In this document: positions 2,084 to 17,164 of the stretch, one piece after another
How positions within the stretch are numbered: the first letter of the stretch is position 1
Layout of the letters: every line of letters begins with the position of its first letter
IMG/VR virus record: IMGVR_UViG_3300042465_010122
Span: 1 to 23,348 of that record
Direction: 5' to 3' (one strand)
DNA length: 23,348 nucleotides
DNA from: a virus
The notes under the pieces: model-generated
Databases searched by the model: none
What the model was told of the DNA's origin: nothing
The model's input: only the letters and a program-made list of their open reading frames with translations
Position numbers and translations under genes: made by a program

Positions 2084-3580
2084 ATGCCCATGAAATCGAA
2101 GAAAAGAGCAGCTCCGGCAGGCTTCCCTGCCGATCCGCCATCTGGTTGCCCAATCGAGGCAACCAGCTCGAAATCAGAAACTTGCGAGCCTTCTGGGCAA
2201 GCCGGGACAGATTTTCCTGACAGTTTTTCTGACAAGTTGACTCCAAAGCCGGGGTCGATGCCCAGGAAACGCAAACGTCGCAGCAGCATCGTGGAGATCG
2301 GCAACGGTCCCGCGAGAATCAAGATCTACACGATGAACCGTCGGGACGGCTACCCCGAGTTCACGCTCTCATGGAAGGAGGCTGGCAGGCGCAAGACCCG
2401 CAGCTTCTCAGATATGGACGAGGCGCGGATGGTCGCCCAGCAGATCAGCGTCCGACTGACCAACGGCTGGACGGCCGCTGATGAGGCGACCCGCCGCGAC
2501 ATCGACCTGCTCCGCCACTGCGAGCAGGTGGCACGCGAACACGGAGTCGGTCTCGCCGCCGCAATGGACGAATGGGCCAGCGCACGGAAGGCCGCAGGTG
2601 AGATCCCGCTGTCCGATGCCGTCCGGTTCTATCAGGCGAACCGGGCTGACTTGTTTGCCGTCCGGACCAACGTCCAGGTGGCCGCCGAGTTCGTCCTGTC
2701 GCTGAAACGCAAGGGCGTGAGCGACATCTACGTCAGGAATGCAACCGGCAGCCTCAAGCGGTTCACCGATGCCATGCCAGGCACCATCGCCGATGTGAGC
2801 GTGGCCGACATCAACCGGTTCCTCGATGGACTCAAAACCCTCGGGCCGGTCAGCAAGAACGGCATCCGGCGGAACCTCGTCACGATGTTCGGATTCGCCA
2901 AGAAGCAGGGCTACCTCCATCCCGACCGCAAGACGGCCGCAGAACAGAGCGACTCATTCAAGGAGCCTGAGAAAGAGATCGAGATTTTCACGCCCGATGA
3001 AATGGAGAGCATCCTGCTCGCCGCCCACGCCCGGATCCTGCCGCTTATTGCCATCGGCGGATTCTGCGGAATCCGGTCGGCCGAGGTTGAACGCCTCAAC
3101 TGGCAGGACATCAAATGGGATCGCGGTCACATCGAGATCGCCGGCCACAAAGCAAAGACGGCGGCACGGCGACTCGTCCCCCTCCCCGACAACCTCAAGG
3201 CGTGGCTTGCGCCATGGCGTCAGGAAACTGGACCGATCATCTCAATCAGCGATGTCTCAGGTGCCTTGGGCGATACCGCCGTGAAGGCAAAAATCCCCGG
3301 CGGATGGCGTCAGAATGCCCTCAGACACTCGTTCATCAGCTATCGGGTAGCGGAGACCGGCGACGTCGCTCGAACCTCTCTGGAGGCCGGCAACTCCCCG
3401 AAAATGATCTTCCGCCACTATCGGGAAATCGTGGATGAGGAAGCGGCCCGGAAATGGTTCGGCATGATGCCGCCCGATGGCTGGATGCCGGTCGGGCTGG
3501 GCCCCAGCCTGCGGGATCGCCTGGTGCGTGCGCTCGCCAACCATGGGTCACCGTCTGTTGACAGCACCAACGCAGCGTAA
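2084..3580 (+). CDS. int: Tyrosine recombinase, phage integrase
   Basis: This 498-residue site-specific recombinase is expected to integrate and excise the prophage. The catalytic domain begins near residue 300. Visible active-site parts are Arg331 in CGIRSAEVERL, Lys356 or Lys358 in the beta-hairpin HKAKTAARR, Arg414 and His415 in NALRHSFISY, His445, and the nucleophile Tyr446 in FRHYREIV. The usual HxxR motif reads NALR here, so the first His is replaced by Asn411. A SAM-like core-binding domain covers about residues 175-280. The first 58 residues are Pro/Ser/Lys-rich and resemble no integrase domain, so Met59 (base 2258, MPRKRKRRSS) is a possible true start. The gene is followed after two bases by the HTH gene. 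It faces the late operon convergently, a common prophage-end layout. Confidence 0.93.
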   Translation: MPMKSKKRAAPAGFPADPPSGCPIEATSSKSETCEPSGQAGTDFPDSFSDKLTPKPGSMPRKRKRRSSIVEIGNGPARIKIYTMNRRDGYPEFTLSWKEAGRRKTRSFSDMDEARMVAQQISVRLTNGWTAADEATRRDIDLLRHCEQVAREHGVGLAAAMDEWASARKAAGEIPLSDAVRFYQANRADLFAVRTNVQVAAEFVLSLKRKGVSDIYVRNATGSLKRFTDAMPGTIADVSVADINRFLDGLKTLGPVSKNGIRRNLVTMFGFAKKQGYLHPDRKTAAEQSDSFKEPEKEIEIFTPDEMESILLAAHARILPLIAIGGFCGIRSAEVERLNWQDIKWDRGHIEIAGHKAKTAARRLVPLPDNLKAWLAPWRQETGPIISISDVSGALGDTAVKAKIPGGWRQNALRHSFISYRVAETGDVARTSLEAGNSPKMIFRHYREIVDEEAARKWFGMMPPDGWMPVGLGPSLRDRLVRALANHGSPSVDSTNAA

Positions 3581-5911: not shown

Positions 5912-7099
5912 TCAGTAGGAGCCGTAGTAACCGCCGCCGCCGCCGCCGCTTGCGAAGAGGTCGCCGTGGACGGAGACGAGTTCGGTGCCGAGAAAGCGCA
6001 GGACGGCCATGCCGTATGGATCGAGATAAACCTCGGAACCGGGATTCTGCCTGCCGGGCTGGCTGGTCAGGGTGGGACCCGAATAGAGCCCGAGCGGAAT
6101 GCTGGCGCTTGGGCTGGCGTTGAGCACCGCGAAGCCGGGGACGGTCCAGGCCCCTGAGCCGCTGGCCAAAACCTGGCTCCAGAAGGTTGCTCCATGGAAG
6201 GCCGCCATGTAGCTCACCAGGTCGCCAAGTGTGTAGCCGGACCCCACGTAGGACGGGTCGAGGACGTAGAGCGTGAGGCCCTTGAAGTCGAGCGGCAGCG
6301 GGTAGGTGGCGTAGTTGTAGGGCGAGGTCAGCACGGCACGCAGTCCTTGGGCGATGCCCACCCAAGCGGCGGACTGGTTCAGCCCGTAGAGCGTCGAGCC
6401 GGACAACGAGGGCGTTGCCATCGCGCTGATGGCGCTGCGGGCCGATGCGGCGGAAGTCGCCTTGATGAGGGCGCGACCGGTGGTGGTCGAATCCGAGATG
6501 GAGGCCGCGGTGATCGCGAGTTGGCCGGCGGGCACTTTGCCTCCGGAATCCAGCCCCGCATAGCCGTTCGCCACTCCCTTGCGGGCGACCAGTTCGATCG
6601 CGGATGGTGCCGGATACGCGGGCTCCCCATCGACAGGCACGCCTTCCGTGCCGCGGTTCACGTCGTTCTCGACGATGACGAGGAAGGTCCGCGTGGAGGT
6701 TGGCTGGCCGCTGCCCTCGCGCCAGGTGATCTCGCCCATGAGGCCGATCTCGGAAAGCTCGGTGCCGGTGGAAGAACCGACCTGCATCGCCGAATCGAGC
6801 TCGACCGTGTTGAAGCTTGGCGAGCAGGAGTAAACCGGGCTGGTCGCGCCGGTCGCCGGGAGCACCCAGGCGGATTCATGGACGAGGTAGCCGACGTCGT
6901 AGCGCCCGCGCGGTTTGAGCCCGAGCTGGAGTTCGAGGGTGGCCGGGTTACCGATCTCGGAAGCGGCGGTCCCGTTGGCAAGGAAGCTCACCTCCAGCTT
7001 CGCGGCGTCCCCGCGCTTGAAGCGTAACGAAGTGACCGGGTTGCGGAATCCCGGCCCTTCGATCAATTCCAGTGTCTCCAGGTCAACGTAGAGCCTCAC
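5912..7099 (-). CDS. Tail fibre-like protein
   Basis: A 395-residue protein with a GTG start. Residues about 180-195 carry KGVANGYAGLDSGGKVPAGQL-type sequence, the GYxxLDsxGKVP motif widely found at the shaft of phage tail fibres. Before it is a beta-rich N-terminal domain (about 1-175, starting MRLYVDLETLELIEG) likely to attach to the tail tip. After it come Ser/Ala/Thr-rich repeats and a probable receptor-binding region. The C-terminus ends in a glycine run and GYYGSY. It is the natural partner of the two downstream genes (glycosyltransferase-sulfotransferase and DUF4376-like). The N-terminal domain resembles that of proteins in other Verrucomicrobia prophages only by general character. Its start has an upstream GGTTGAC word 14 bases away. 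Confidence 0.7.
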   Translation of the reverse strand: MRLYVDLETLELIEGPGFRNPVTSLRFKRGDAAKLEVSFLANGTAASEIGNPATLELQLGLKPRGRYDVGYLVHESAWVLPATGATSPVYSCSPSFNTVELDSAMQVGSSTGTELSEIGLMGEITWREGSGQPTSTRTFLVIVENDVNRGTEGVPVDGEPAYPAPSAIELVARKGVANGYAGLDSGGKVPAGQLAITAASISDSTTTGRALIKATSAASARSAISAMATPSLSGSTLYGLNQSAAWVGIAQGLRAVLTSPYNYATYPLPLDFKGLTLYVLDPSYVGSGYTLGDLVSYMAAFHGATFWSQVLASGSGAWTVPGFAVLNASPSASIPLGLYSGPTLTSQPGRQNPGSEVYLDPYGMAVLRFLGTELVSVHGDLFASGGGGGGYYGSY

Positions 7100-8349: not shown

Positions 8350-9080
8350 TCCTCGTCCTTGTAAATGTCCTCGTCCCAGCCGCCCCGGTCGCTGGCCAGC
8401 CACTCCATCTCGATGCGGTATGACTTGCCCTCCTGCGACTGGCTCACGCCGTTGAGCAACCAGTTGCGGCCTCCGGCCAGTTCCGGCACTTCGCCGGATG
8501 GTTCTGAGATGTTCCCGATGTCGTTGAGATCAGACGACTTCGCCGGCTTGTCGCGCACCCAGCTTTCGCGCCAGGTGACGCGCGGGCTGTAGTAGCTGGT
8601 CTGGCCGCGTTCGATCTTACCGAGAACTTCCGTGCCCAGTTCGCTCTCGATCTTGTCGCGGAGCTTGTTGCCCTGGTCGTCCTTGTCCTTGCCTGACTGG
8701 ATCAGTTGGATCGCCTCGCGTTCCTTGTCCTCAAGGTCCTTGTAGCGCGGGTGACTGAGCAGCGGCTCCTCCGAGAGCGATAGCCCCATCGAGTAGACGG
8801 CGTTGTTCTTTTCGTCCGCTTCTTCCTTTTCCTCCGCCCCGGCATACTGGCAGGTGATTTCCGCGAGGTCGCCCTCGGTGAAGCTGGCGGTGACCTGCGA
8901 GACCTGGATGAAGTTGATCTCCGGATGGATCGTGCCGGGTCGCGGAATCAGGGCGACGGCGGAGCTGCGGTGGCAGAGGAAGATCTGGGTGGCGGTCCAC
9001 TTGCCCTCCTTGTCGATCTGGACGGAGTAGCCCGGCTGCGGGTAGAGGCGTCCCGGCTGGATGGAAACGTGTCTCGGCAT
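8346..9080 (-). CDS. Uncharacterised protein after tape measure, probable tail-tip component
   Basis: A 244-residue protein encoded directly after the tape measure. The N-terminal 80 residues are hydrophobic/beta-rich (FLCHRSSAVALIPRPG, INFIQVSQVTASF), followed by a strongly charged Glu/Asp/Lys helical region (about 82-150) and a Trp-rich end (WRESWVRD, EMEWLASDRGGWDED). No known domain is seen. In lambda-like operons this slot holds a distal-tail or minor tail protein (gpM/gpL), which is the best guess. A GGTTGAC word overlaps the tape-measure stop 17 bases before its ATG. Confidence 0.6.
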   Translation of the reverse strand: MPRHVSIQPGRLYPQPGYSVQIDKEGKWTATQIFLCHRSSAVALIPRPGTIHPEINFIQVSQVTASFTEGDLAEITCQYAGAEEKEEADEKNNAVYSMGLSLSEEPLLSHPRYKDLEDKEREAIQLIQSGKDKDDQGNKLRDKIESELGTEVLGKIERGQTSYYSPRVTWRESWVRDKPAKSSDLNDIGNISEPSGEVPELAGGRNWLLNGVSQSQEGKSYRIEMEWLASDRGGWDEDIYKDEE

Positions 9081-9097: not shown

Positions 9098-9104
9098 GTC
9101 AACC
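9098..9104 (-). repeat. Start-associated GGTTGAC word, post-tape-measure gene
   Basis: Minus-strand TCGGTTGACGCC contains the TGA stop of the tape-measure gene and lies 17 bases upstream of the ATG at 9080. Confidence 0.5.
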
Positions 9105-10856
9105 GAAGGCCGCCTGGCCGCCGCCTCCGAGCTTGTCGACCCGCCGGTTGAGGTCGTTGAGCAGCCGGTTGGTTTCGCCGGTGAGCCGGTTGTTTTCGCG
9201 CTGCGCATCCAGCGCCCCAGACGAGTAGCCGCCGCCACCGACTTTACCGAGCGAGGTCACGATCGGTGCGAGGGTGGAGGTGCTTGGTTTGGCGGCTGCC
9301 GGCGCGGTGCCGCTGACCCTCCCGGCGGCGGCCACCGTCTTGGCGGCATCCTCGGGCTTGGGCATCGTGTCGCGGATCGACTGTGCCACCTTGCCGAAGC
9401 TGTCCCGCAATCCGCGGGTGTCGATGAGTTCGCTGCCGGTGGATTCGCCCGCCTTGCGTGCCGCCTCCGCCACCCGTTCGCCGAGCTGCGGGGCACCTTG
9501 GCCGATCAGCCCCTGAGCACCCTCGGCGATCTCTTTGAAGTTCATGCCGAAGAGGTCCGCGCCCGATTCCTTCCGGTCCTTGAGGATGCTACCAAAGTTG
9601 GTCTCCACGTCGCCTGCCTCGAAGCCGAGCAGCTCGTTCATCCCCGGGATCTTGAGCAGCCCCTTGAGCAGGTGGGCGATCACCCATTCCATGCCCGCCT
9701 GGAGATAGACGATTGGCGTCTGGAACGCGTTGAGCAGCGCGGCACCGAAGCCGGCCACCAGCCCGAGCAAGGTGGTGCCGAGGCTCTTCCACATCGCGCC
9801 GTCGGTGAGGAGGTTCCAGAAGAATTCGATGGCGGTGCGGAAGCCGTTGACCAGAGCGTTCACGCCGACCGCGAAGGCGAGCTTCAAGCCGGAGCTGACC
9901 AGGTCGAGAAGCTGGCCGCTCTTGAACGCGGCGATCACGAACATCACCGCCTCCTTGACCCGCTGGCCCGCTTCGGTGGCGAGGGGCGTGAGCTTCTGGA
10001 CGAGCCCGATGCCCTGCTCGACCAGGGGACGGATGGCGTCGTTGATCGGGGTGCCGAGGGTGAGGAACACCTCGTTGATCGTGTCCTTGAGCGTCGAGAA
10101 CAGGCCGGAAGTCGTCTCTCCCTGCGCCTCCATCATCCCGGCGAACTTGCCACCCTGGGAGGTCATGGAAACGAAGGCCCGCTCGATGGCCGGAAAGCCG
10201 ACCTGGCCGGACTCGACCAGCTTCTTCACCTCGGAATCCGACACGCCGAACTGCTTGGCGAGTTCCTGGATGATCGGGATGCCGCGGCCGGTAAGCTGGT
10301 TGATGTCCTCGGCGAAGAGCCGCCCCTGGACCCGCGCCTTGCCGTAGAGTTCCGCGATCTCGTTGACCGGCGCCTGGACGCCTGCCGATACGTCACCGAT
10401 CCGGCGGAGTGTTTCTGGCACTGAGTCGGCGGATTCACCGAAGGCGATGAGCTTGCGGCCGGCATCCGCCAGTTCCGGGAACTCGAACGGCGTCTTGGCC
10501 CCGAGTTCGCGGAGTTTGCCGAGGGTTTGCTCCGCCTTGGCCGCATCGCCGATCAGGGTCGTGAAGGCGACCTTGGTCTGCTCGAAGTCGGCGGCTGCCG
10601 TGACCGCTTTCATGCCGACTCCCACTGCAGCGGCCCCGCCGGCCATGGCCGCGCCGATGGATGCCTTGAACGCGGTCCCGGCGACACTGAAGCCCTTCTG
10701 CAAGGCGGCGGCACCGCCCTTGCCAAGTCCGGCCAGTCCAGCGCCCGTGAGCCTCCCCATCCGCCGGGCCGACGCGCCGACCAGTTCGGTGGCACCGGCC
10801 ATCGCCCGTTTCAGGGCGGTGATGTCGGCTCCGAGGGTGACGGTCAGGGCGCTCAT
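9099..10856 (-). CDS. Tail tape measure protein
   Basis: A 585-residue protein with the N-terminal tape-measure domain (about residues 85-275): FEQTKVAFTTLIGDAAKAEQ, KTPFEFPELADAGRKL, the RLFAEDINQLTGRGIPI segment and GQVGFPAIERAFVSM are typical of TIGR02675-type proteins. A Gly/Ala-rich hydrophobic stretch (36-88) and further hydrophobic helices (about 320-420) follow, then a helical C-terminus with NNRLTGETNRLLNDLNRRVDKL. Tape measures set tail length at roughly 0.15 nm per residue, so 585 residues suggest a fairly short tail of near 90 nm (inference). The ATGA at its start is the overlap expected for the end of the original tail-chaperone frame, see the insertion finding. Confidence 0.93.
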   Translation of the reverse strand: MSALTVTLGADITALKRAMAGATELVGASARRMGRLTGAGLAGLGKGGAAALQKGFSVAGTAFKASIGAAMAGGAAAVGVGMKAVTAAADFEQTKVAFTTLIGDAAKAEQTLGKLRELGAKTPFEFPELADAGRKLIAFGESADSVPETLRRIGDVSAGVQAPVNEIAELYGKARVQGRLFAEDINQLTGRGIPIIQELAKQFGVSDSEVKKLVESGQVGFPAIERAFVSMTSQGGKFAGMMEAQGETTSGLFSTLKDTINEVFLTLGTPINDAIRPLVEQGIGLVQKLTPLATEAGQRVKEAVMFVIAAFKSGQLLDLVSSGLKLAFAVGVNALVNGFRTAIEFFWNLLTDGAMWKSLGTTLLGLVAGFGAALLNAFQTPIVYLQAGMEWVIAHLLKGLLKIPGMNELLGFEAGDVETNFGSILKDRKESGADLFGMNFKEIAEGAQGLIGQGAPQLGERVAEAARKAGESTGSELIDTRGLRDSFGKVAQSIRDTMPKPEDAAKTVAAAGRVSGTAPAAAKPSTSTLAPIVTSLGKVGGGGYSSGALDAQRENNRLTGETNRLLNDLNRRVDKLGGGGQAAFG

Positions 10857-10870
10857 GCGCCGGGGCTGGA

Positions 10871-10877
10871 GTCAACC
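10871..10877 (-). repeat. GGTTGAC word, right-flank copy at cargo insertion and upstream of tape measure
   Basis: Minus-strand CTGGTTGACTCC lies 14 bases upstream of the tape-measure ATG. It is also one of two copies that bracket the 1.8-kb cargo segment; the other is at 12659-12665. Confidence 0.55.
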
Positions 10878-10976
10878 AGCTGGGAGTCTGTCTTTGGAGT
10901 GAAGGCCGTTGGAAGAACTGGCGCCCGGACCGGAGGGAGAAATGGGGTGTGTTTTCCACACTCTTTCAGTGACGTG

Positions 10977-11933
10977 CTAGTAGACAATTAACGATTTTGA
11001 AGTAGTAACCGAATCGGCTACCACTTTGCCTTGTTTTTTGCTAGCGGTCACGCGCACAGTATAAGTTCCTTTCTTAGATGGCATTCCGGATATGACACCC
11101 GTCATTGCATCTATTTTCAGCCCTTTTGGCAGCCCGGTGGCCGTGAATGCATTTGCTCCAAAGTTAGTCGTAACTGCGTAAGGGATGATGTTCTGTGAGA
11201 TAGGAACGGAAACGCTTGATAAGTCGCTCGTGATCGTAGGTCCTTGGTAAGTTGGGCCTTGGGGTATATCTTTTGAGTTTGGATCAGTCCCGTACAAAAT
11301 GACCTCATTAAAATTACTCACTCCATCAGCATCATCGTCATCTAGTGGCGAGGATATTTTTTCTGATGTGAAGCTACCTATTGTTTCGGCTGATTGGCTA
11401 ATCTCATCCTGAGTGGCTGAATCGAGGAAAATAAGCAGCTTGACCAGAAAACTGTTCGTTCCATCGGTAAGAAAAATATGTTGTGAGACGACGCTGAAAT
11501 AATTTTTAAAGTCTGTTATGGATAGCGCCCTGATTACGTTGGCCGAATAAAACATGTAATCTGATTGAGCGCCTCCGCTAAACGGCGCATCCGTCGCCAA
11601 ACTTGTTAATGGGTATCCTGCATCATTAAAAGATTTTATGGTTGCGAGCTCTTCCGAATTTAGTAACGACTTAAGAAGAAGGTTTAATGTATCGTAGTCT
11701 TTAACTGTGATTTTCTTCTCGGTGTTAGCTAATCTGCGAACGCTCAGAGTTATCGACCCCGAGGGAGATCGCGCAATAAACATCGAAGCGTCCCTGGTTG
11801 TTATGCTCCAGTCATTAGGTATTTCAACGGTAACGCTGTCACCCAAGCTCTCTACGGCGGCTTGCATCCTGTTTTCAAGAAAACAGACAAAAGCAAGAAT
11901 CGAGATAATTATTCTGAAGTATTTAGGTTTCAT
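10977..11933 (-). CDS. Secreted protein with calcium-loop and Ig-like domain (cargo)
   Basis: A 318-residue protein with a signal peptide (KPKYFR basic end, hydrophobic 8-19, probable cut near MQA-A at 25). Residues 30-190 form a globular region starting VTVEIPNDWSITTRDASMF, of a type seen in small periplasmic PsbP/DcrB-like proteins, though this match is weak. Residues 198-222 (DDDDADGVSNFNE, GTDPNS) are a thrombospondin-type-3-like calcium loop. Residues 240-318 are a putative Ig domain (GLPKGLKIDAMTGVISG, GTYTVRVTASK). This arrangement is common in secreted proteins of Verrucomicrobiota and has no role in virion assembly. The low GC differs sharply from the tail genes on both sides, so the gene was gained by transfer. 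It could be a lysogenic-conversion factor; its function is unknown. Confidence 0.82.
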   Translation of the reverse strand: MKPKYFRIIISILAFVCFLENRMQAAVESLGDSVTVEIPNDWSITTRDASMFIARSPSGSITLSVRRLANTEKKITVKDYDTLNLLLKSLLNSEELATIKSFNDAGYPLTSLATDAPFSGGAQSDYMFYSANVIRALSITDFKNYFSVVSQHIFLTDGTNSFLVKLLIFLDSATQDEISQSAETIGSFTSEKISSPLDDDDADGVSNFNEVILYGTDPNSKDIPQGPTYQGPTITSDLSSVSVPISQNIIPYAVTTNFGANAFTATGLPKGLKIDAMTGVISGMPSKKGTYTVRVTASKKQGKVVADSVTTSKSLIVY

Positions 11934-12598
11934 TTTAATCGTGTTTTATCTGGCTGGTGTTCGGCCCCCCGTTGCTTTGATGTCTTTCCGAGGCCACGGC
12001 CTTGAGGGGCGCTGCTAGGAGTAATTTCATCTGTGGTAGAGTCTTGAAAGAGCCAATGGGTCCGACCTAGAGGCGCGGAAATGGGGGTTGCGGAGAAAAG
12101 GGGTGGGAGATGTGTTCCGGTGCAGCGGTGGGCGGTGTTTCGACACGAAAATCCCTGGTTGTCGCCAGAATTGGGCGTGATTGGAACATTTCAGTGAGAT
12201 TTTTTTGCAGCGAAAGTAGTTTTCCATGCCGCTTTGCCAAGATTTTTTTGGTGCCGTTTATCTTTTGAACCCAGCGGGCGAGTCAGGTATATTTTGGGAT
12301 CAGAATGCGGCCTTCGTCCAATTGGATTTCCACGGGCTTCCATCCGGGGCTCTGGTCAAACCGTCGGGATCGGGATTGGATGAATTCCAGGGACGGTTGA
12401 ACCAGTCGAGGTCCGGTTCTGCTACTTCCGGGCTAGGGCCGCCCGGTCATTCGCGTCAGGTTAAGGCCCGGATCCCTGATTTCATGGGGGATGAGATCGC
12501 CGACGATCTAATTGATGGATGCCATCCCGGAGGTCCCACAGATTCTCCATTCACAGTATTGGGCGACTGTCCGACCGTCGATCCCCGTCGCGGCGCTC
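11934..12598. other. Non-coding part of the cargo segment
   Basis: About 665 bases separate the secreted-protein start from the end of the GT frame. I see no convincing gene. Short frames on the minus strand near 12280-12440 read like worn protein fragments but lack a start codon. A plus-strand frame across 12226-12807 has Pro/Ser/Gly-rich content and continues antisense over the GT gene. Poly-T runs at about 12200 and 12240 and an inverted repeat at 12138-12150 are the only structured elements. The region may hold the promoter of the secreted gene. Confidence 0.4.
12138..12150. repeat. Short inverted repeat in cargo upstream region
   Basis: TTTCG-ACA-CGAAA forms a perfect 5-base dyad about 205 bases upstream of the secreted-protein start. 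It could be an operator; there is no further support. Confidence 0.25.
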
Positions 12599-13284
12599 TT
12601 ACGCACTTGACGGTAGGCTTCGCACATTCAGTTCAGGTCCATATGGTTGCTCAACGCTGTCAACCGACTCCCGCCACTGGAGACGCAGCAGGGCGAGTTG
12701 GTCGGCGAGCGATGATTCGCACGCCCCCGTTCGGCTCCACGTCGTTCGCACCGCGTTCCTCCGCAGCAGGCAGTGCTGATACTGCGCCAGCCTTGCCAGC
12801 GGCATGAACAGTATCCGCTCCTCCGGCCAGCCGGTTTCGGCGGCGACGGCGAAGACCTGGGCGGCTACGAAGCCTGGTTCGTCGCAGGCAGGGGCTTTTT
12901 TCCCGCCAGTCCCGACACGGGATCGACCTGGGCCGCCTCCAGCTCGCGACTCTGTGCCTCCAGGTGCTGGAAGGCGGTCTGGAAATCCTCAGGAGTCAGC
13001 CCGCCGCAGAAGATCAGGGCGGCTTCCCGGAATCCCTGGTCATTGAACGAAGCCCGGACCACCTCGGGCCACGGGGCGCAGTGGGCATAGACGAAGCCCA
13101 TGATCGAGGACGTGAACTCCGGCGTGCCGTCCTTGGGCATTTCGCCCTTCACCAGCGGGTTGCCGGTGCGGAGCAGCACGTCGTAGCTGGCCAGCGAGAG
13201 CGGGCGCATCGCGTGGCCGGCGACGATGGTTTCCACATCGTGGAAGGCGGCGGAGAGGAGCTTCTGGCGGTCGGTGTCGTCCAT
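12599..13284 (-). CDS. Tail assembly chaperone GT, -1 frameshift product
   Basis: Reading starts with the G protein at 13284, slips back one base at A AAA AAG (12901-12895) and continues to a TAA at 12599, giving 130 + 98 = 228 residues. The extension begins APACDEPGFVAAQVFAVAAE and contains GWPEERILFMPLARLAQYQ, a protein-like stretch with a pattern expected of the T domain that binds the tape measure. In lambda, gpG and gpGT coat the tape measure and recruit tail-tube subunits. The last about 20 residues after ESVD come from the cargo insertion and are not native: the original end was probably ESVDSSPGA. The product is inferred from codon phase and signal, not shown. Confidence 0.75.
12659..12665 (-). 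repeat. GGTTGAC word, left-flank copy at cargo insertion
   Basis: Minus-strand TCGGTTGACAGC lies within the GT frame (S-V-D). It matches the copy at 10871-10877 base for base over seven positions. An ATG lies 16 bases downstream (12642) but its frame ends after four codons, so it starts no gene. Confidence 0.5.
12864..12901 (-). promoter_or_regulatory. Programmed -1 ribosomal frameshift signal
   Basis: On the minus strand the heptamer A AAA AAG (12901-12895) is exactly in the X XXY YYZ phase of the G frame. After a 9-nt spacer comes a hairpin: GCGACGAA (12885-12878), loop CCAGGC, TTCGTAGC (12871-12864), seven pairs with one mismatch. The hairpin includes the G stop codon TAG. This is the classic layout for -1 frameshifting. 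Confidence 0.85.
12865..13284 (-). CDS. Tail assembly chaperone G
   Basis: A 139-residue protein made by normal termination. ATG at 13284 (MDDTDRQKLLSAAFHDVE) is preferred because it follows the previous stop by seven bases; longer in-frame starts would overlap that gene. The sequence is mostly helical, with MRPLSLASYDVLLRTGNPL, then a C-terminal region ending GLAGKKPLPATNQAS. 'PLS..S...L...GN' is typical of tail chaperones that sit between tail tube and tape measure. Position, size and the frameshift site together make this a lambda gpG analogue that coats the tape measure during tail assembly and is absent from the finished virion. Confidence 0.85.
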   Translation of the reverse strand: MDDTDRQKLLSAAFHDVETIVAGHAMRPLSLASYDVLLRTGNPLVKGEMPKDGTPEFTSSIMGFVYAHCAPWPEVVRASFNDQGFREAALIFCGGLTPEDFQTAFQHLEAQSRELEAAQVDPVSGLAGKKPLPATNQAS

Positions 13285-13291
13285 GGGATCT

Positions 13292-13693
13292 TCAGAGGTG
13301 GCGGAGGAACAGGTCTTCGGTGGCGGGCGATGCATCCAGCGGGATGAAGGCGATCTTGCCCCGGCGCTTCACGCAGGCCAGCGGCACGTCGCGCTTCACC
13401 TTGTCGACCAGCCGCTCGCGGTTGAGCAGTGCGCACTTGATGTAGGCGAATGGGTGCTCGGGATGGGCGAGATGCCAGGCGTCGTCGTGCCAGGCGGCGA
13501 TGAGTTCCTTGGTCTGGAACTTTCCACACGGGCTCTGCGGATCGAAGAACCAGACGGTGCGCTCGCCGCGGATGCCGTCGCCGACGATGCGGACGAACGG
13601 CTTTTCGGCCAGAGCGATGCCCACCGCCGTCAGTGCGGCGGCGAGGCAGGTGTTGCTGGTGGCAGTGGAGGAAAGGTGGGATACGGCGTTCAT
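13292..13693 (-). CDS. Uncharacterised protein between tail tube and chaperone
   Basis: A 133-residue protein not recognised. It has a Thr/Ala-rich N-terminus (SSTATSNTCLAAALTAVGIALAE) that may be a helix and reads like a substrate entry region, then VWFFDPQSPCGKFQTKELIAAW, with an acidic/aromatic DDAWHLAHPEHPFAYIK region and a KRDVPLACVKRRGKIAFIPL strand pair. No membrane or secretion signal is convincing. Most lambda-like operons have no gene between tail tube and G, so this is a lineage-specific addition. A virion or assembly role is likely only by position. The C-terminus lies seven bases before the G start. Confidence 0.6.
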   Translation of the reverse strand: MNAVSHLSSTATSNTCLAAALTAVGIALAEKPFVRIVGDGIRGERTVWFFDPQSPCGKFQTKELIAAWHDDAWHLAHPEHPFAYIKCALLNRERLVDKVKRDVPLACVKRRGKIAFIPLDASPATEDLFLRHL

Positions 13694-13720: not shown

Positions 13721-14104
13721 TCAGGCCCCGCCGCCGCTGGCGACGAACGGGTAGTGGGTGGCGGTCAGGTCGATCTTCTCGAAGTCCTCGTTGTTGAGGC
13801 TGCGGCTGACCTGCATGAGGATGGTGGTGCCGCCGCCGGCCTGTTGGAGGTGGCCCGGGATCGCGTTGGCGAGGGCGATGGCTGCGCCGATCTTGCCGCT
13901 GAACGACGAGGTCTTGGCCACGAGGCCCGAGAGCTTGATCTCGACCTTCTCCTGGTAGAGCGACAGGCCGATGATCTCGCCCGCCTTGTCCAGGACGGTC
14001 TTCTCCTGGTTGGAGAAGTCGAAGGACAGGTCGGTGATGAGGATTCCCGGCTGATCGTTCGGGATTCCCCAGTTGCCGGTGGTGCCAAGGAAAGTCGCGG
14101 CCAT
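13721..14104 (-). CDS. Major tail tube protein
   Basis: A 127-residue protein rich in beta-strand: DFSNQEKTVLDKAGEIIGLSLY, EKVEIKLSGLV, and a Gly-rich loop at about 85-92 (QQAGGGTTILMQV) followed by NNEDFEKIDLTATHYPFV. 'N.E..t.l.d..Ge..g......k.e....G' is the usual tail-tube pattern in which the strands build a ring that stacks into the tail. Size is slightly below lambda gpV because no C-terminal Ig domain is present. It sits between the tail terminator and the chaperone genes as expected. A GGTTGAC word lies 17 bases upstream of its ATG. Confidence 0.8.
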   Translation of the reverse strand: MAATFLGTTGNWGIPNDQPGILITDLSFDFSNQEKTVLDKAGEIIGLSLYQEKVEIKLSGLVAKTSSFSGKIGAAIALANAIPGHLQQAGGGTTILMQVSRSLNNEDFEKIDLTATHYPFVASGGGA

Positions 14105-14131: not shown

Positions 14132-14557
14132 TCAGACGGCGGAGGCGACGGCCTCGTAGCTCAGCACACTTTCACGGCCGCGAGACTCGTCGGGTGTGGT
14201 GCTTCCTTCCCGCTCGATGAGGTCGTGGAGGACGAAGGTTTCCGAGTCGAGTTCGGCTTGGATTGCTGCCGTGTCGCGAAGCAGGGTCACGAGTTTGCCC
14301 GCCCATTCGGCGTGGATTTCCGCAGGCGTGTCATCCACCTGGGAAAAGAGATGCACGTCGAGCTTCACGCGGGCGGTGTGTGGCATCGCCGGGACCGGTT
14401 TTGATTCCGAGGTGTCGAGAACGACGCAGGGCCGGGTGCGGATTTCATCGCGGCGGGCGACGTGGACGGGGATCGTCCCTGGAAATCCCTCGGGGCGGTG
14501 GGCGTCGATCCATTCGGCCAGCAGCGCCGACAGGCGGTCTTCGATCAGGTTTGGCAT
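14132..14557 (-). CDS. Tail terminator-like protein
   Basis: A 141-residue protein starting MPNLIEDRLSALLAEWIDAHRP. Helix-then-strand order with DEIRTRPCVVLDTSESKPV, a strand HTARVKLDVHLFSQVDDTPAEIHAEWAGKLVTLL and a C-terminal strand near VLHDLIEREG fits the small alpha/beta tail-terminator family (lambda gpU-like), which caps the growing tail tube and binds the head connector. It lies immediately upstream of the tail-tube gene, where such proteins are usual. Start chosen at 14557 because it has a GGTTGAC word 18 bases away and lies after the stop of the preceding gene; longer frames run into that gene. Confidence 0.7.
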   Translation of the reverse strand: MPNLIEDRLSALLAEWIDAHRPEGFPGTIPVHVARRDEIRTRPCVVLDTSESKPVPAMPHTARVKLDVHLFSQVDDTPAEIHAEWAGKLVTLLRDTAAIQAELDSETFVLHDLIEREGSTTPDESRGRESVLSYEAVASAV

Positions 14558-16669: not shown

Positions 16670-17164
16670 TCAGGCTTGGTGGTTGAGGATGAGGGCTTGC
16701 TGTTCGGGCGTGAGCTTCCGCCAGAAGGCGGTCTGGGCGGCCGGGTCGGTGATGGCGGCGAACTGCGCGTGAAGCTCGGCCGCTTGCGGGGCGTCGCCGG
16801 CAGGGGTGACGCGGGCCGGCATCGCGGTGCCGGTGGAGGCGACCACGCGGGCGACTTCGAGTTGGACGCGGCGGTCGAAGTCGGCCTGCGACGCCTGGAG
16901 TTCGGCGACGCGGGTGCGCAGCGTGGTGGCTTCCGCAGCGGCGGTGTCGCGCTCGGTGACCAAACCGGCACTCGCGGTCGTGGCGTCGTCGCGTTCCGCC
17001 CGCAGCGATTCGATTTCGGCGGCGAGCAGTTCCACTTCGCCGCGCAGTGAGGTCGTGGCGGTGGTTTCCTCGGTGAGGAGTTCGGCCTGGGCCTGGTGGT
17101 CGCGCTGGAGTGCGAGGAGGTCGGCGCGGGCTTTGGCGAGTTCGTCTTCGATGGCGGTGTTCAT
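16670..17164 (-). CDS. Nested scaffold protein from internal start
   Basis: An in-frame internal ATG (Met275 of the protease) begins MNTAIEDELAKARADLL, exactly at the coiled-coil border, and would give about 164 residues. A GGTTGAC word lies 15 bases upstream, as at other late starts, though here it is inside the protease frame (S-V-D-T). The parallel to lambda Nu3 supports it. Production as a separate protein is inferred. Confidence 0.6.
   Translation of the reverse strand: MNTAIEDELAKARADLLALQRDHQAQAELLTEETTATTSLRGEVELLAAEIESLRAERDDATTASAGLVTERDTAAAEATTLRTRVAELQASQADFDRRVQLEVARVVASTGTAMPARVTPAGDAPQAAELHAQFAAITDPAAQTAFWRKLTPEQQALILNHQA

Follow-up and report, generated by a model that had tools for sequence, protein, structure and literature searches.

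The stretch of viral DNA analysed here, 23,348 nt in full and called the window below, very probably encodes, judging from sequence comparison, a lambda-type G/GT tail chaperone pair made by a -1 frameshift in a temperate phage of Verrucomicrobia (Akkermansiaceae/Verrucomicrobiaceae). The gene G analogue lies on the minus strand at 12865..13284 and encodes a short product of 139 aa (MDDTD...ATNQAS*). Its listed ORF opens at 13335, and the conserved start is the ATG at 13284, whose Met is invariant in an 18-sequence alignment. Toward the end of G the minus strand reads GGA AAA AAG CCC CTG ... TCG TAG, with GGA AAA AAG at 12903-12895, the slippery heptamer A AAA AAG at 12901-12895, and the TAG stop of G at 12867-12865, 34 nt past the heptamer. 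The heptamer frame is the frame of the G ORF, and the preliminary description was thus right to place A AAA AAG in exact phase for simultaneous slippage. It was also right that the -1 frame stays open for 98 codons: reading from the heptamer gives KK plus 98 codons, ending at a stop at 12601-12599. This T part of GT, 98 codons after two shift codons, spans 12599..12895 on the minus strand, and GT as a whole is 13284-12895 joined to 12895-12602, a product of 228 aa.

Across the 5,796 codons of 16 minus-strand ORFs, A AAA AAG and the overlapping GGGAAAA are the only in-frame heptamers of the form X XXY YYZ in which Y is A or T. The open -1 frame is weak evidence when taken alone, since 2,211 of 5,764 in-phase starting points in the same 16 ORFs (38%) are open by chance for at least 98 codons. 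The heptamer and T stand above chance because they are conserved across relatives. A scan of IMG/VR with six G peptides, none of which covers the slip site, matched 92 relatives, of which 80 were examined; AAAAAAG lies in the G frame in 80/80. The distance from heptamer to stop is 34 nt in 77 of the 80 and 37 nt in the other 3, and the G stop is TAG in all 79 complete relatives, with the contig ending there in L006 (our locus label). A further scan of GTDB genomes with the G alignment gave 31 loci, 30 of them labelled Verrucomicrobia, Verrucomicrobiales, Verrucomicrobiaceae, Akkermansiaceae or Akkermansia muciniphila and one sitting in a bin labelled Acidobacteriia. When the 80 relatives, the 31 genome loci, and the window are counted together, the heptamer is in frame in 109/112 records. 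The three exceptions are decayed-looking copies from one MAG (LacPavin_0419 62_22): L109 keeps the heptamer letters with the G frame broken upstream, while L110 (AAAAAAA) and L112 (AAAATAG) match G only in part. The check proposed earlier, a search for relatives in which both frames persist but the heptamer is gone, therefore brought no refutation, as only L110 and L112, with their partial, decayed-looking G, differ.

A broader set of 189 loci, which includes overlapping re-fetched contigs, contains 187 with a T match, and 185/187 of these hold AAAAAAG when frame is not considered; 12 of the 189 are in shifted register through small indels or a broken T. Plain codon habit does not explain the fixed AAA-AAG pair, because the Lys codons of G upstream of the site are AAG 161 times and AAA 130 times across 99 loci. 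One other in-frame heptamer, GGGTTTC, occurs 232 nt before the stop in 7/80 relatives. The 79 sequences used for the entropy analysis below were preselected for AAAAAAG and a stop at +34, and L009, L010, L011, L013, L109, L110, L112, other stop distances, and short flanks were left out. Invariance of the heptamer and of the stop distance within that set is uninformative because the set was selected for both, and conservation of the heptamer is taken only from the 80/80, 109/112, and 185/187 counts.

Downstream of the G stop, entropy at codon positions 1, 2, and 3 of the -1 frame is 0.41, 0.15, and 1.00 bits across the 79 distinct sequences. The T-only stretch thus shows amino-acid selection, the pattern of a protein under selection, which upholds the earlier impression that this frame reads like real protein. 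In the overlap of G and T the -1 reading CDEPGF is nearly invariant and the G reading is more variable. An alternative is that T is a separate gene with its own start, or a decayed remnant, and that the heptamer is a Lys-Lys coincidence. The counterpart of T in the distant phage Moulinsart, described below, is indeed annotated as a separate ORF of 213 bases (WAK79077), and T is broken in some copies: L009, L010, L011, and L013 have the same sequence here and share a 2-base insertion in T (4/80 contigs), and L107 has an early stop. T can thus be lost, or these copies are dead. Against a separate gene, no ATG, GTG, or TTG occurs in the T frame between 12988, where the frame opens, and 12806, and the first candidate, the ATG at 12805, falls inside the conserved T region, where the residues before it (CDEPGF..AAQVFA) are conserved as much as those after it. 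A coincidental heptamer is likewise at odds with its retention in 80/80 examined relatives. We consider this alternative extremely unlikely. As expected of a lambda-type pair, the end of G is overlapped by T in the -1 frame, and T is without its own start.

The surroundings of the pair are those of a tail module, in the order putative tail protein, small gene, G/T, cargo, tape measure, all on the minus strand. The putative major tail protein gene (13721..14104) is named only from its position upstream of G and has no useful family match. The small gene in the interval between it and G (13292..13693) has no family match and is found in the same place in most longer loci. The tape measure gene, at 9099..10856, was identified by Pfam (TMP_3, 5.3e-22) and PHROG (tape measure, 9.1e-71), and the G/T pair lies upstream of it, again as in lambda. 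Even at E 10, neither Pfam nor PHROG gave a match for G itself. T had no Pfam match, and its best PHROG match was an unknown family at E 0.059. The predicted structure of T (mean pLDDT 75) had no PDB match at E <= 0.001, and that of G was poor (mean pLDDT 56). Family and T-fold searches thus do not link G/T to the lambda G/T or HK97 chaperones by homology. The tail chaperones of different phages are described in a review as having low mutual similarity (PMC5009743).

A distant homologue was found in the Akkermansia phage Moulinsart (ON453896). While G alone matched nothing in 50,697 phage records, a consensus T matched Moulinsart at E 7e-3 with 40.8% identity over 49 aa, and a longer G-T query found the same place at E 0.2 only. 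A second phage match of T (MF417929, E 0.8) lies inside a recombinase gene and was taken as chance. In pairwise comparison, the 152-aa Moulinsart gene upstream of T is 27% identical to G (E 2e-7), and the two T sequences are 39% identical over 49 aa (E 5e-9). Since the database E-values are weak, homology is argued from the pairwise scores, the gene order, and the heptamer. In Moulinsart and 9 IMG/VR loci of the same type, which together amount to about five distinct sequences, A AAA AAC lies in phase in 10/10 records, and an in-frame GGGTTTT lies further upstream in 9/10. Moulinsart differs from the window in its site, A AAA AAC, which sits 7 nt before the stop, in the three genes that separate T from the tape measure, and in the deposition of WAK79076 and WAK79077 as two separate hypothetical proteins. 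A -1 shift at A AAA AAC probably links these two into a G/GT pair (L190 5540-6240; ON453896 10632-11332). Moulinsart is listed among induced prophages, with A. muciniphila as host (PMC10197239).

From these features we infer slippage, its rate, its ribosomal nature, and a chaperone role for the products. Most ribosomes would read G and terminate at TAG. In a minority, the P- and A-site lysine tRNAs on AAA AAG would re-pair one base back on AAA AAA, and the slipped ribosomes would continue in the -1 frame to yield GT, in which G is extended by a T part without its own start. If the roles are those in lambda, the tape measure protein would be bound by the G part and the tail tube protein recruited by T. 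In lambda, as described, G is likewise a small tail-module gene that precedes the tape measure gene and is overlapped by a T frame in -1, and a low-level fusion product would be expected. Lambda differs in its shift site, GGGAAAG, and no match of the window G/T to known families was found.

A modest rate of slippage, as a lambda-like ratio would need, is what we would expect. Lysine tRNAs were examined in one genome, that of L083, which belongs to a related host and not to the window's own. It has 45 tRNA matches in Rfam, among which ARAGORN reads tRNA-Lys (ttt) and tRNA-Lys (ctt). The frameshifting review notes that where a host has two lysine tRNAs, tight pairing with AAG is to be expected of one of them (PMC5009743). 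In this one related host, tRNA-Lys(CUU) should lower slippage at AAG, which would fit a low GT:G ratio. A separate search by lysine-tRNA gene patterns was dropped when neither the tested nor the control anticodons were found in four genomes.

The poly-A run at the G/T junction also raises the prospect that the extra product arises from transcriptional slippage, by the polymerase and not the ribosome. The same review raises a possible link between a second lysine tRNA and the use of RNA polymerase slippage by Thermus thermophilus dnaX (PMC5009743), and the L083 genome has both lysine tRNAs. The run, however, is exactly six A in 109/109 in-frame records including the window, with no A before it, whereas the transcriptional cases reported in PMC3711429 have runs above seven. 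The phase A AAA AAG is kept and the run is not lengthened, and the distant Moulinsart-type homologue has six A and then C. Transcriptional slippage is accordingly a highly improbable source of GT, and ribosomal -1 frameshifting remains the preferred reading.

The signal was previously described as including a hairpin that begins 9 nt after the heptamer and holds the G stop. Such a hairpin is present in the window (12864..12885, minus strand): it starts 9 nt past the heptamer, has 7 pairs with one G.A mismatch, includes TAG, and folds at -4.9 kcal/mol. As a part of the frameshift signal it does not hold up, since its C-G pair is broken in 57/76 distinct heptamer-keeping relatives and kept in 19/76, and no compensatory change was found at any hairpin pair among the 76. 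At the other six pairs, 75 or 76 of the 76 relatives are intact; dual coding would also yield this, as the stretch codes in two frames, and the third codon positions of the T frame still vary inside stem and loop. The folding z-scores against shuffles (-0.05, -0.40, +0.32, and +0.85 for four stretches) are near zero and not beyond chance. A longer consensus stem predicted by RNAalifold (columns 17-53) was rejected as well, having no compensatory change, with 0/16 pairs showing one in the whole prediction. A conserved downstream hairpin of the dnaX type was accordingly not found among these relatives. That the stop-holding hairpin is an essential stimulator is already largely refuted across the family and seems very unlikely; in the window it is probably incidental.

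The best candidates for stimulators are instead two other features, the CC after the heptamer and a G-rich, Shine-Dalgarno (SD)-like stretch upstream of it. CC follows directly 3' of the heptamer in 101/109 records, and a review lists 3' CC as promoting shifting at A_AAA_AAG in E. coli more than any other dinucleotide in that position (PMC5009743). The SD-like stretch lies in the window at 12902..12918 (minus strand) and pairs weakly with the anti-SD there (-4.0 to -5.3 kcal/mol). Among the 79 distinct sequences, 61-63 have anti-SD-pairing 10-mers of <= -4 kcal/mol starting at -17 to -14; the mean at this peak is about -6 kcal/mol, and the amino acids encoded there vary. A stimulatory role for this stretch is suggestive only, because two stronger peaks occur elsewhere in G.

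Taken together, the mechanism is very likely the known G/GT frameshift, in a new, well-supported example that is ordinary in kind. The earlier proposal of a programmed -1 frameshift in the G/GT pair of a Verrucomicrobia phage, which allows GT to be annotated, is supported. A AAA AAG is itself a well-known shift site, as treated in PMC5009743 and PMC3711429. As a G/GT site A AAA AAG is not new, as AAAAAAG, and possibly AAAAAAC in one phage, has already been named as the G/GT slippery sequence of Paenibacillus larvae phages (PMC6003738). In those phages the same heptamers are proposed at the corresponding position of a gene pair of this kind, the sites being named tentatively in what is a genome announcement. 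E. coli dnaX, as described, has the same heptamer, and an upstream SD-like stretch may be a further similarity; it has a hairpin stimulator, one host lysine tRNA, and an efficiency of about 50%. The window differs from dnaX in that its hairpin is not conserved, that one related host has two lysine tRNAs, and that the shifted product is longer, not shorter. The locus is a natural test case for slippage on A AAA AAG when no hairpin is conserved and when, judging by one related host, two lysine tRNAs are present. Annotation of GT also becomes possible across a large family of verrucomicrobial prophages and in Moulinsart, where it stands as two hypotheticals.

Less expected than the frameshift are a short upstream element, GTTGAC, and a slot for cargo genes that adjoins it. 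GTTGAC lies 18-24 nt before seven gene starts, in one orientation, in 336/337 distinct upstream sequences from the window and its relatives. In the window the copies on the minus strand precede the S49 protease gene (18006; 22/22 distinct upstream sequences), a nested scaffold-like start (17185; 18/18), the gene at 14557 (14581; 67/67), the putative major tail protein gene (14127; 69/70), the tape measure gene (10876; 83/83), the gene at 9080 (9103; 56/56), and the gene at 7099 (7119; 21/21). The element is absent before G (0/76), the small gene at c13693 (0/79), and the genes at 8403 (0/29), 15678 (0/10), 5899 (0/7), 4487 (0/5), and 15452 (0/1), and it is found before the portal gene in 2/10 sequences and before the MCP gene in 1/26, there at 35 nt. 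Looked for within 60 nt upstream of 69 ORFs, some overlapping, from host tRNA neighbourhoods and of 38 ORFs from Moulinsart-type loci, it was not seen. The nested start at 17164 (minus strand) lies inside the S49 gene (17986-16670) and reads MNTAIEDELAKARADL...; GTTGAC is 21 nt upstream in the window and 18 or 21 nt upstream in 18/18 distinct sequences. By analogy, this is likely to be a nested scaffold start.

Relatives show large gaps at the junctions just before GTTGAC elements, with the junction before 15678 as the exception, and the junctions that lack the element, among them c13693-G and 9080-8403, are tight (on only 6 loci in some cases). GTTGAC looks like a phage-specific, start-associated element that may act in transcription, translation or recombination. 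Several familiar identities were considered and rejected. Read as a sigma-70 -35 box, it has no -10-like hexamer at the right spacing in the window copies inspected by eye, and its 5' side is where inserts adjoin. A 16S-pairing site would call for GTCAA, which is lacking in the 16S gene of the L083 genome. As an integron-like core it would be expected at left borders, but most of those inspected are without it; that of the window has it. A literature search for GTTGAC as a phage upstream motif returned, as judged by title, only unrelated titles.

The closest parallel considered is the start-associated sequences of Cluster K mycobacteriophages, described as 13 bp long and typically 3-7 bp before starts (PMC3203893). 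Both are short repeats in one orientation before a subset of gene starts, and both are, as far as the Cluster K description goes, rare or absent in the host. GTTGAC differs in being 6 bp at 18-24 nt, in preceding structural genes, in having no complement in one host 16S, and in bordering cargo. It is an analogue and not a member of the Cluster K sequences, because its 6-bp sequence is different and has no complement in that 16S gene.

The cargo slot lies between T and the tape measure. Among 92 distinct T-tape measure stretches, 73 are occupied (0.35-3.85 kb), 12 are gapless, 5 are of the Moulinsart type, and 2 (L107 and L112) were left out; the last two groups did not enter the cargo clustering. 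In the gapless loci the T stop and the tape measure start overlap as ATGA (GTGA in L059), and GTTGAC is present in 12/12, where it encodes Val-Asp of T. The 73 occupied stretches fall into 52 groups by blastn, and of the 102 ORFs called mechanically in the group representatives (70 aa or longer), 86 run with the tail genes. A Pfam scan covered 21 of the 102, including the He_PIG gene of the window. Among the matches were trypsin-like proteases, FGE-sulfatase domains, Mrr nucleases, Sel1 repeats, a NIDO domain, a methyltransferase, DUF488, and a DDE transposase (the last in L174, whose tape measure start is unplaced), and five of the 21 scanned ORFs had no Pfam match.

The right border of the slot is sharp. 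GTTGAC lies exactly 20 nt before the tape measure start in 71/72 distinct occupied loci, with L025 one base off and L174, whose tape measure start is unplaced, not counted, and information content across this border rises from 0.7 or less to about 1.9 bits in 51 group representatives. In the window, where this element lies at 10871..10876 (minus strand), 20 nt before the tape measure start, the cargo (10877..12658) is flanked by GTTGAC on both sides, at 12664-12659 and 10876-10871. The cargo consists of a reverse transcriptase-like fragment, an apparently non-coding stretch, and a gene with a He_PIG domain at 11933-10977. The fragment, at about 12628-12560 on the minus strand (MCEAYRQVRKSAATGIDGRT), seems to resemble the N-terminus of group II intron reverse transcriptases and is perhaps a remnant of one. 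The first bases of the cargo encode the last 19 codons of the window T. These codons look insert-coded and not part of T proper, because they follow the GTTGAC at 12664 (Val-Asp), which marks the left border of the cargo, and differ from the gapless sibling L083, which continues past GTTGAC to its own T end. Two loci, L103 and L033, have a duplicated border: at the left border a copy keeps the T end and the first tape measure bases (only few in L033) before the cargo, and a second T end and tape measure start follow after it.

We lean slightly toward a joint reading of these patterns, in which the tail operon is made of blocks headed by the phage-specific GTTGAC, the nested scaffold-like start included, and the hexamers are self-sufficient gene-start signals that let unrelated host-type cargo enter directly upstream. 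The main slot would lie between T, with its expendable C-terminal tail, and the tape measure, would hold mostly different cargo in each copy, and would end at the 5' edge of GTTGAC. If functional, the element and its slot would offer a simple handle on the expression of prophage structural genes and on the collection of host genes.

Seven genomes have two or three copies of this prophage (L086/L087/L088, L095/L102, L085/L091, L090/L094, L103/L104, L105/L106, and L082/L084), and an eighth has three decayed copies. In the five genomes in which all copies are comparable and occupied, each copy has a different cargo group, and both copies of L105/L106 are gapless. Elsewhere in the window, a large kinase-like gene (21657-18100; PHROG 'kinase' at 6.5e-47 among its matches) occupies the interval between the portal and the head protease. 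It is probably cargo in another slot, because the portal-S49 gap also varies in relatives, from 17 to 3,714 nt in 10 loci with the window included. At the left end of the window, beyond the integrase (2084-3580), positions 3-866 encode a protein that by eye is RHS-repeat-like, and this stretch is perhaps host DNA beside the prophage.
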